Assembly: GCA_958296055.1 (NCBI GenBank)
Contig: CATQHS010000001.1
Coordinates: 2,886,277 to 2,950,276 of the forward strand
DNA length: 64,000 bases
Source of the DNA: an uncultured Acidimicrobiales bacterium
Lineage (GTDB): Bacteria; Actinomycetota; Acidimicrobiia; Acidimicrobiales; Aldehydirespiratoraceae
Reading direction: 5' to 3'
In this document: one piece after another, positions 35,919 through 37,717 of the stretch
Layout of the letters: every line of letters begins with the position of its first letter
How positions within the stretch are numbered: the stretch's first letter is position 1
The notes under the pieces: generated by a model
What the model was told of the DNA's origin: nothing
The model's input: the letters and a program-made list of their open reading frames with translations, nothing else
The model's database searches: none
Translations under genes and position numbers: made by a program

Positions 35919-36689
35919 GTGGACTCACAGCCCGCGGGGAGCGGTCACATCGAGGTCGATCGGGTCACCAAGACCTACGCGTCCGACGCCGGCGACATCC
36001 AGGCGCTGGACGCCATCGACCTCGACATCGCTCCCCGCGAGCTCGTCACCATCGTCGGGCCGAGCGGGTGCGGCAAGAGCACCCTGCTGCGCTGCATCGG
36101 CGGCCTGATCCCCCCGTCGGAGGGCCGAGTCCTCATCGACGGCGAGGTGGTGACCGAGCCGGACCCCCGGATCGGCTATGTCTTCCAGAGGGCGGTGCTC
36201 CTTCCCTGGCGCACCGTCGAGAAGAACGTGCTGCTGCCGTTCGAGATCGGCGGCCGGCCGACATCGAAGGACCGCAAGAGCGTGCACGAGGCGCTGGAGA
36301 TGGTCGAGCTCAGCGAGTACGCCAAGCTCCGCCCGGCCGAGCTGTCGGGAGGCATGCAGCAGCGGGTGGCCGTGGCTCGGGCCCTGGTCACCGAGCCGTC
36401 GATCCTGCTGATGGACGAGCCGTTCGGTGCCCTCGACGCCCAGACCCGCGACTCCATGAACGTGGAGCTGCTCCGCATCTGGCAGGAGGCCAAGCCGACC
36501 ATCGTCTTCGTCACCCACGACATCGGCGAGGCCCTGTTCCTCTCCGATCGGGTGGTGGTGATGACGGCGCGGCCCGGACGGGTTCACGAGGTGGTCGAGG
36601 TGGACATCCCCCGGCCCCGGACCTTCGAGCTGGTCGAAGGCGACAAGCGCTTCTGGGCCCTGCGGCACCGGATTAGAGCCGCGCTGTAG
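35919..36689 (+). CDS. ABC transporter ATP-binding protein (SsuB/TauB type)
   Basis: 256 residues. Walker A GPSGCGKST, Q-loop VFQRAVLLPWRTVEKNV, signature LSGGMQQRVAVARAL, Walker B LLMDEPFGALDAQTR and H-loop VTHDIGEALFLSDRV are typical of nitrate/sulfonate/taurine importers. GTG start at 35919 with GGAG ~12 nt upstream. It belongs to the importer with the genes on either side. Confidence 0.92.
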   Translation: MDSQPAGSGHIEVDRVTKTYASDAGDIQALDAIDLDIAPRELVTIVGPSGCGKSTLLRCIGGLIPPSEGRVLIDGEVVTEPDPRIGYVFQRAVLLPWRTVEKNVLLPFEIGGRPTSKDRKSVHEALEMVELSEYAKLRPAELSGGMQQRVAVARALVTEPSILLMDEPFGALDAQTRDSMNVELLRIWQEAKPTIVFVTHDIGEALFLSDRVVVMTARPGRVHEVVEVDIPRPRTFELVEGDKRFWALRHRIRAAL

Positions 36690-36719
36690 TAGCGGGAGAC
36701 AGCGGGAGGCAGGTAGCCG

Positions 36720-36796
36720 ATGACTGAACAGGGGGCGACTCAACAGCAGATGACCGAACAGGGGGTGACTAGACAGCGATGACCGAACAACCGACG
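36720..36796 (+). repeat. ATPase-permease junction repeats with a 20-codon mini-ORF
   Basis: ATGAC(T/C)GAACA recurs at 36720, 36750 and 36779. ATG 36720, which has the only good ribosome site here (GGGAGG), opens MTEQGATQQQMTEQGVTRQR*. Its TGA overlaps the permease ATG at 36779 (ATGA), and the permease begins MTEQPTTEQ. Start spacing 59 nt. Confidence 0.85.
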
Positions 36797-37627
36797 ACCG
36801 AACAGAAGCCGCGGCTGCTGCGACGGCTGCGCAACGAGAAGCCGCTGGGGCGGATCCTGGTGGTGGTCAGCGCCGCCCTGCTCTTGGTGGTCTGGGAGGC
36901 GTGGGCCCGCACCAACTCCCCGCTCATCCTCCCCACCCCGATCGCGGTCTTCGACCGGCTGGTGAGCTACGTCTCGGCCGGCCGGGCCTGGCCCCACATC
37001 ACCATCACCGTGCAGGAGATCGTGGCCGGATTCGCCCTGGGCAGCTTCATGGGCATCGGGCTCGGCACCCTGGCCGCCGAGTTCAACATCGCCCGGCGGG
37101 TGATCATGCCCTACGTGATCATCACCCAGGCCCTCCCCAAGTTCGCCCTGGCCCCCATCCTGGTCATCTGGTTCGGCTTCGGGACCACCCCCAAGATCAT
37201 CATCGCCGCGCTGATCGCCTTCTTCCCGCTGCTGGAGAACACCTACCTGGGCCTGACCACCACCCCCGCCCTGGACTTGGAGCTGTTCCGGGCACTGCGA
37301 GCCCCCCGGCGGGTGACGCTGCTGAAGCTGCGGGTGCCCCACGCCGTCCCGGCCGTGTTCAGCGGGCTCAGGGTGGCGCTGCTGCTCAGCCTGGTCGGCG
37401 CGGTGGTGGCCGAGTACGTCGGCGCCAACAAGGGCCTGGGGGCGCTGATCATCGTCTCCCAGGGGATGCTCGACACCGAACTGATGTTCGTGGCCTTCGT
37501 GTTGTTGACGCTGCTGGGCCTGACCCTGGACAAGCTGCACGGGCTGAGCTACCGGCTGGTTCTGCGCCGCCTCTACGGCAAGACCGCCTCGAGCGCCGGG
37601 AGGGCGGCCAGCCGTGTGTCGGTCTAG
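36779..37627 (+). CDS. ABC transporter permease (SsuC/TauC type)
   Basis: 282 residues, six membrane helices, with the BPD-transport EAA-like loop EAA-type segment ALRAPRRVTLLKLRVPHAVPAVFSGLRVALLLSLVGAVVAEY. It forms the channel of the importer. No ribosome site lies directly before its ATG; the GGGAGG belongs to the preceding mini-ORF, so expression probably depends on termination-reinitiation at the ATGA overlap. Its stop region is repeated downstream. Confidence 0.9.
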   Translation: MTEQPTTEQKPRLLRRLRNEKPLGRILVVVSAALLLVVWEAWARTNSPLILPTPIAVFDRLVSYVSAGRAWPHITITVQEIVAGFALGSFMGIGLGTLAAEFNIARRVIMPYVIITQALPKFALAPILVIWFGFGTTPKIIIAALIAFFPLLENTYLGLTTTPALDLELFRALRAPRRVTLLKLRVPHAVPAVFSGLRVALLLSLVGAVVAEYVGANKGLGALIIVSQGMLDTELMFVAFVLLTLLGLTLDKLHGLSYRLVLRRLYGKTASSAGRAASRVSV

Positions 37628-37717
37628 GGAACGGCCGCGTGCCGGCGCGGCGCCGGCCGTGTGTCGGTTTAGGGAACGGCCGCGTGCCGGCGCGGCGCCG
37701 GTCGTTTGTCGGTCTAG
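37611..37717 (+). repeat. 45-bp tandem repeat of the permease stop region
   Basis: Copies start at 37611, 37656 and 37701 (last one truncated); each carries an in-frame TAG after GTCGGT. Each unit includes the dyad GCCGGCGC-G-GCGCCGGC, so the array also offers repeated hairpins between the importer and the enzyme genes. Confidence 0.85.

Follow-up and report, generated by a model that had tools for sequence, protein, structure and literature searches.

A repeat-derived minicistron ahead of an ABC importer permease as a candidate ribosome relay in an uncultured Acidimicrobiales bacterium

Between the ATPase and permease genes of an ABC importer in an uncultured Acidimicrobiales bacterium lies a 20-codon open reading frame whose stop codon overlaps the permease start codon. 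Does this mini-ORF deliver ribosomes to the permease, and does it link permease output to that of the ATPase? The locus, which encodes an upstream NMT1/THI5-like binding protein, the ABC ATPase and the BPD-type permease, was analyzed in a window of 64,000 nt, that is, the whole stretch of DNA under study, and all positions refer to this window. The features are collected in Table 1.

Table 1. Features of the importer locus and of the ATPase–permease junction (positions in the window).
Feature	Position	Strand	Remarks
ABC importer ATPase gene	35919..36689	+	GTG start, TAG stop; Pfam PF00005, 1.2e-34
10-nt tandem repeat AGCGGGAGAC/AGCGGGAGGC	36691..36712	+	Found with TRF; bears the SD-like GGGAGG
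GGGAGG, SD-like site of the mini-ORF	36704..36709	+	10 nt spacing to the mini-ORF ATG
20-codon minicistron (mini-ORF)	36720..36782	+	First four array units; TGA on the permease ATG (ATGA)
Array of six 15-nt units (fourth, 14 nt)	36720..36808	+	Borders by eye; repeat families computed
GGGGGTGA within the minicistron	36761..36768	+	Complementary to the 16S 3' tail; 13 nt (G-run) to the permease ATG
ABC importer permease gene	36779..37627	+	PF00528, 1.9e-29; orthologues found

The mini-ORF encodes MTEQGATQQQMTEQGVTRQR and then ends in TGA. The first-pass annotation had described it as a 20-codon frame with GGGAGG ahead, and both its extent and the position of the motif were confirmed. The permease ATG is the first start codon past a TAG in its own frame (36770–36772), and it shares four nucleotides (ATGA, 36779–36782) with the end of the mini-ORF; the pair therefore has the 4- or 1-nt stop/start overlap of termination-reinitiation (TeRe). 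The upstream side differs. The ATPase gene ends in two adjacent TAG codons (36687–36692), and no ATG, GTG or TTG overlaps its stop. Because the double TAG leaves no overlapping start, the chain is broken at the ATPase stop, and an unbroken overlap from there to the permease start is not found in this locus; a 30-nt gap separates 36689 from the mini-ORF start. With this gap, no overlap and a strong SD of its own, the mini-ORF can be entered by ribosomes independently of the ATPase. A relay fed in this way need not make permease output track ATPase output, and the earlier proposal that the relay sets the one relative to the other is not borne out.

A repeat search, with unit borders drawn by eye, revealed that the mini-ORF is built of tandem copies of the start region of the permease itself. 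The six units (36720–36734, 36735–36749, 36750–36764, 36765–36778, 36779–36793 and 36794–36808) form two units per 30-nt period, and the last two are codons 1–10 of the permease. Since the odd units begin with ATGA and the fourth is 1 nt short, the frame opened at 36720 stops exactly at the permease start. The array is specific to this locus: the 14-base core of the unit has an exact match nowhere else in the genome, and the pattern TGACYGAACAGGGG was found only at the importer array in a whole-genome search, that is, there is no dispersed family of the kind formed by MIRUs. Comparison of the array DNA with 51 genomes of the family gave, beyond the own locus, one 41-nt match of 88% (G028), which on inspection was taken for chance. 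A separate tandem repeat of 45 nt (2.5 copies) spans the permease stop codon at 37607–37717.

The strength of the two putative ribosome sites was estimated by pairing with the 16S 3' end of the own genome, which carries GGATCACCTCCTTTCT. GGGAGG pairs with this tail at -12.5 kcal/mol, a value surpassed by 38 of 1202 called starts. The GGGGGTGA motif inside the mini-ORF pairs with the anti-SD at -15.1 kcal/mol; stronger sites belong to 6 of the 1202 starts of the larger sample and to 0 of the 351 of the first. The earlier statement that the permease lacks its own ribosome site was thus overstated, though the motif is 13 nt away. The related statement that the permease is reached only through the ATGA overlap was confirmed as to the overlap but not as to 'only', given the strength of GGGGGTGA. 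The permease has a ribosome site, but a badly spaced one, with its G-run ending 13 nt before the ATG, because GGAGG at a spacing of 13–16 nt is near the background (11 cases among 1196 sampled starts, versus 112 at 4–10 nt; 0 and 25, respectively, in the first 347 starts).

These values bear on a simpler explanation, namely that ribosomes start the permease at 36779 straight from GGGGGTGA and that the mini-ORF is a by-product of start slippage with little effect. The pairing energy speaks for it, and even when the motif is restricted to a nearer window the value is still -10.4, which equals or beats 90% of unbridged starts. We nevertheless regard direct initiation as unlikely, since the motif sits at a spacing that sampled starts hardly use, and since this explanation accounts neither for the predominance of relay-phase start copies in the genome (31 of 40) nor for the phase-correct minicistrons of the relatives, both described below.

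The chance of such a mini-ORF was evaluated with 3000 dinucleotide shuffles of the ATPase–permease gap. An ATG-initiated mini-ORF ending in that ATGA arose with at least 10 codons in 12% of the shuffles and with at least 20 codons in 5.1%; at least 20 codons together with an SD of -12 or lower were obtained in 0.2%. Folding of 36660–36840 disclosed no RNA structure at the permease start in excess of shuffled sequences (z = +1.22, with 182 of 200 shuffles folding at least equally well), nor, by the same measure, did this segment contain an mRNA structure that leader translation would open, as for a leader peptide or attenuator. Programmed frameshifting into the permease frame was also considered and was judged unlikely from the sequence, that frame containing the TAG at 36770–36772.

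One property of the array counts against a relay: its nominal period of 15/30 is a multiple of three, and the single short unit alone gives the relay phase. The short fourth unit could then reflect a mistake of the assembly or a recent deletion, in which case the normal protein would begin at 36720 and carry a repeat extension of 20 residues in frame. Periods divisible by three occur in 37 of 84 co-directional junction arrays, and the short unit adjoins a run of five G, a kind of site that can give rise to indel errors. By eye, in an alignment that is not unique, the missing base lies outside this run, in CAGCG as compared with CAGCAG of the second unit. Furthermore, among proteins of the relatives only 3 of 194 (62,109 aligned residues) were frame-split in the own genome, against 1 of 216 in a reverse test; indel errors are therefore rare, which makes one at the short unit unlikely. 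An in-frame extension is further disfavored in that upstream copies of a start in phase 0 are rarer than in the relay phase (6 versus 31), with the reservation that the gene caller tends to hide phase-0 copies. On these grounds we hold an error or recent deletion to be very improbable.

We then asked whether the own genome contains similar arrangements, using a sample of 1.644 Mb, about half of contig 1, which comprised discovery stretches and 400 kb of replicate stretches. Genes were called with a simple purpose-made caller, so that starts are approximate; this caller tends to absorb phase-0 copies but has no evident way to favor relay phase 2 over phase 1. A junction was taken as bridged when two co-directional genes, 5–250 nt apart, were connected by minicistrons, each step of the chain having an overlap of 4 or 1 nt. 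By this definition, 113 of 548 gapped co-directional junctions were fully bridged from the stop of gene 1 to the start of gene 2. Removal or addition of one nucleotide in silico lowered the count to means of 48.8 and 45.0, and substitution left it at 109.8 (20 rounds each). With called starts only, 82 junctions were bridged, compared with 25.8 (deletion), 18.6 (insertion) and 80.0 (substitution). About 45–49 of the 113 chains are accordingly expected without any phase preference. The importer locus is not one of the 113, its link from ATPase to mini-ORF being the 30-nt gap.

The phase preference was also seen in two further counts. For gaps with DTGA at both ends, gap length mod 3 was distributed as 27/65/22 (classes 0/1/2), the relay phase being 1. 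Where the start of gene 2 had a copy upstream (12 or more of 15 nt identical), the copies fell into phases 0/1/2 as 6/3/31, with the importer locus within the 31; the counts were 6/2/22 for the discovery and 0/1/9 for the replicate stretches. The bridging minicistrons (157, median length 14 codons) resemble their neighbors. The head of a minicistron had a likeness of 0.486 to the head of its own gene 2 (permuted, 0.339, sd 0.011), and its tail one of 0.448 to the tail of gene 1 (permuted, 0.336, sd 0.011). The same was true for the 88 of 113 junctions without a TRF array (head, 0.464 versus 0.336; tail, 0.399 versus 0.326 permuted), and in relay arrays the likeness is directly visible in the peptides, for example at the aroA-cmk-, sbcD-sbcC- and rimP-nusA-like junctions (named by eye from protein ends). 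Since they resemble both the gene-2 head and the gene-1 tail, the bridging minicistrons were probably made by duplication of stop/start junctions. As for ribosome sites, the median SD strength of bridged genes was -6.1 and that of genes with a -4 overlap -6.4. Full chains open with a minicistron that starts on the stop of gene 1, and its SD is hardly stronger than random (medians -3.6 and -2.9), unlike that of the importer mini-ORF, which starts 30 nt beyond the ATPase stop and has a strong SD.

Tandem arrays at junctions were also considered. In several of them the unit length is 3n-1 and an ATGA or GTGA is present, and as a result every unit forms a minicistron that overlaps its successor. 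We tested array periods (period at least 14, score at least 60, L at most 200). Co-directional arrays in the 1.644 Mb had L mod 3 of 37/12/35 (class 2 versus class 1, p = 0.0011), and 22 relay loci were found. Arrays at convergent and divergent junctions showed the same lean (19/11/16), and the difference from co-directional arrays was not significant (Fisher, p = 0.20); for this reason the period test alone is not strong. We give greater weight to the bridging counts and to the phase of the start copies, both obtained without a repeat finder. Arrays that keep DTGA in consecutive units were distributed as 10/7/21 at co-directional junctions versus 7/6/2 at convergent and divergent ones (class 2 versus the rest, p = 0.006). 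In the discovery stretches, relay arrays were read in the sense direction in 17 of 65 cases and antisense in 2; where genes converge or diverge, they made up 3 of 58 readings. The phase prediction was set down before the 400 kb of replicate stretches were fetched. There, L mod 3 of co-directional arrays was 12/1/8 (21 arrays, two with L above 200), and of 19 arrays 5 were relay arrays in sense and 1 in antisense, with 0 of 34 readings elsewhere.

Like the importer array, nearly all relay units are local. In a blastn search of the 1.64 Mb, the importer array and 19 of the 20 relay units with hits matched their own stretch only; the twentieth had two 18-nt matches elsewhere, and the remaining 2 of the 22 units, 14 nt long, gave no hit at all. 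Array density per Mb was about 180–190 in the own genome, 175 in the small sample of G029, 57 in G007 and 88 in G050, all of the same family.

Could the importer array be neutral slippage debris, with repeats piling up at gene ends and an ATGA overlap that is coincidental because odd units happen to begin with ATGA? Arrays do accumulate over stop codons, about threefold (20 versus 6.15, sd 2.17, in rotated controls; 464 kb), and are not enriched over starts in the same 464 kb (6 versus 6.01). A unit of 14 nt makes the overlap automatic, and of 176 gaps measuring 20 nt or more, 17 contain a mini-ORF that has an SD and stops close to the following start. Neutral debris predicts equal phases, however, which disagrees with the 6/3/31 of the start copies, and it does not predict that taking out or putting in one base cuts bridging by more than half. 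This explanation therefore seems to us hardly probable.

The importer junction was next compared among relatives. We collected 19 orthologous permease loci, 18 of which have the ATPase directly upstream, and set the ATPase frames by homology. Ten of the 18 ATPase–permease junctions are bridged by one minicistron that differs in sequence from that of the own locus and belongs to a chain starting on the ATPase stop. These minicistrons have 7, 12, 15, 16 or 30 codons, and the gap mod 3 is 1, the relay phase, in all ten; the loci (L005–L008, L010–L013, L015 and L019) come from one neighboring genus, g5. In another 6 of 18 an inferred start shares nucleotides with the ATPase stop, 4 nt in five loci and 1 nt in one; five of the direct loci (L003, L004, L017, L018 and L020) have additional in-frame starts deeper in the gene, and a TTG start is required in L004, L017 and L020. 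The last 2 are neither bridged nor overlapping, the closest start lying 25 nt beyond the ATPase stop in one and 2 nt in the other. An unbroken overlap from ATPase to permease is thus possible in 16 of 18 loci, 6 directly and 10 via a minicistron. From these bridged and overlapping junctions, ATPase–permease coupling seems to be widely preserved, through sequences that differ. One MAG, labelled as gammaproteobacterial, has the sequence that precedes the permease in duplicate, at an offset of 164 nt (L002:3811-4001); the 400 nt upstream contain no ATPase.

Bridging is unevenly distributed in the family. The aroA-cmk junction had a match in 49 genomes, from which 30 loci were taken and 28 parsed; the longest open frame served as the upstream one, a choice that appears mistaken for at least L182 and L183. 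It is bridged in 6 of the 28, namely in the own genome and five genomes of genus g2, and is not bridged in the other 22. The g2 bridges (L198–L202) have 12, 17, 17, 5 and 5+8 codons; a sixth g2 genome, G017, had no locus in this set. A sample of G050 (genus g5) had an excess of bridged junctions (12 of 110 versus 3.3/3.5 in phase-shifted controls). No excess was found in the sample of G007 (4 of 118 versus 5.5/5.2) or in the small one of G029 (5 of 38 versus 6.5/4.5); in G029, relay arrays made up 3 of 8 strand readings where genes converge or diverge, versus 2 of 10 co-directional arrays. A stretch of 1.9 kb (L099:7275-9187) without a called gene and with 47% G+C lies inside a genome of 70% G+C, and is possibly foreign DNA illegible to the gene caller.

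Given the phase bias in the sampled half of the genome, the start copies in the relay phase and the minicistrons of the relatives, a termination-reinitiation relay is the best reading of the importer mini-ORF. Ribosomes would load at GGGAGG, translate some 20 meaningless codons, terminate at the TGA on the permease ATG and reinitiate there, helped or held by GGGGGTGA inside the mini-ORF. Judging from the sequence, we infer translation of the mini-ORF, reinitiation at its end and a limit on permease output. Of the relay put forward in the first-pass annotation, the step from mini-ORF to permease agrees with the reinitiation phase, with the phase bias of the sampled genome and with the bridges in 10 of 18 orthologous junctions; the link to the ATPase finds no support. 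At this locus the upstream link is missing, and the relay would be fed by its own SD. More broadly, the stop/start junctions of co-directional genes would tend to be tandemly duplicated in this lineage, and copies with a step of 3n-1 nt would survive because each is then a minicistron with a stop that shares 4 or 1 nt with the following start, so that coupling persists despite the new gap. That the mini-ORF is a ribosome-delivery minicistron born of tandem duplication, and one case of this lineage habit, is in our estimation somewhat more probable than the opposite.

Such an arrangement has several partial precedents. ATGA and -1 overlaps are described as a signal of termination-reinitiation coupling in gene pairs (in the passages cited of PMC6728339 and PMC10666635), and overlaps or very short gaps are said to be needed, gaps of about 20 nt nearly abolishing coupling (in the passage cited of PMC10666635). 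The upstream partner here differs from that of such pairs: it is a minicistron without evident function, and it spans gaps of about 20 nt or more. MIRUs (Supply et al., 1997) are short, apparently mobile repeats with an ORF coupled at -4 to the next gene, according to the excerpt cited of PMC12548453. The importer array is likewise a junction repeat with an ORF coupled at -4 to the downstream gene, but its unit is locus-specific and resembles the flanking gene ends, so that it looks like a local duplication rather than an insertion. In mycobacteria, RTGA-coupled small ORFs are over-represented, and the linkage is under greater selection than the peptide, as stated in the part cited of Shell et al. 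(2015; PMC4633059). The importer mini-ORF has the same RTGA tetramer, its TGA overlapping a downstream RTG start. The mycobacterial ORFs are backed by ribosome profiling, whereas the minicistrons of the own genome are read from the sequence; unlike the former, many of them also overlap the upstream stop and thus form full chains, with marks of junction duplication. Finally, a synthetic 'nonsense' short ORF placed upstream boosts translation, according to the lines cited of PMC13255528. There, too, the gene that follows is fed by an ORF that has no meaning of its own but contains an RBS; that ORF was engineered, and those of the own genome are natural, repeat-derived and recurrent. Among the matches listed, the open-licence literature yielded no minicistron chains arising from duplication of stop/start junctions.

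A bolder extension, to which we give limited credence, is that in this actinobacterial lineage the stop/start junction is a self-propagating repeat whose 3n-1 nt duplications yield gap-bridging chains of minicistrons, with the repeat number acting as a heritable dial for protein ratios. If the junction did propagate itself in this way, repeat number could vary without loss of coupling. If the dial existed, every added step would lose some ribosomes and shift the ratio of the neighboring proteins.

As regards the biology of this bacterium, tiny genes that end where the next gene begins probably let ribosomes cross gaps that would otherwise break coordinated production. The own genome appears to satisfy the need for coupling over larger gaps by turning its gene junctions into minicistrons, of which those with the correct phase are retained. 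If this is true, overlaps can lengthen into gaps without loss of coupling, many natural test constructs for reinitiation are at hand, and there would be an explanation for a class of small ORFs in which the peptide is unimportant.
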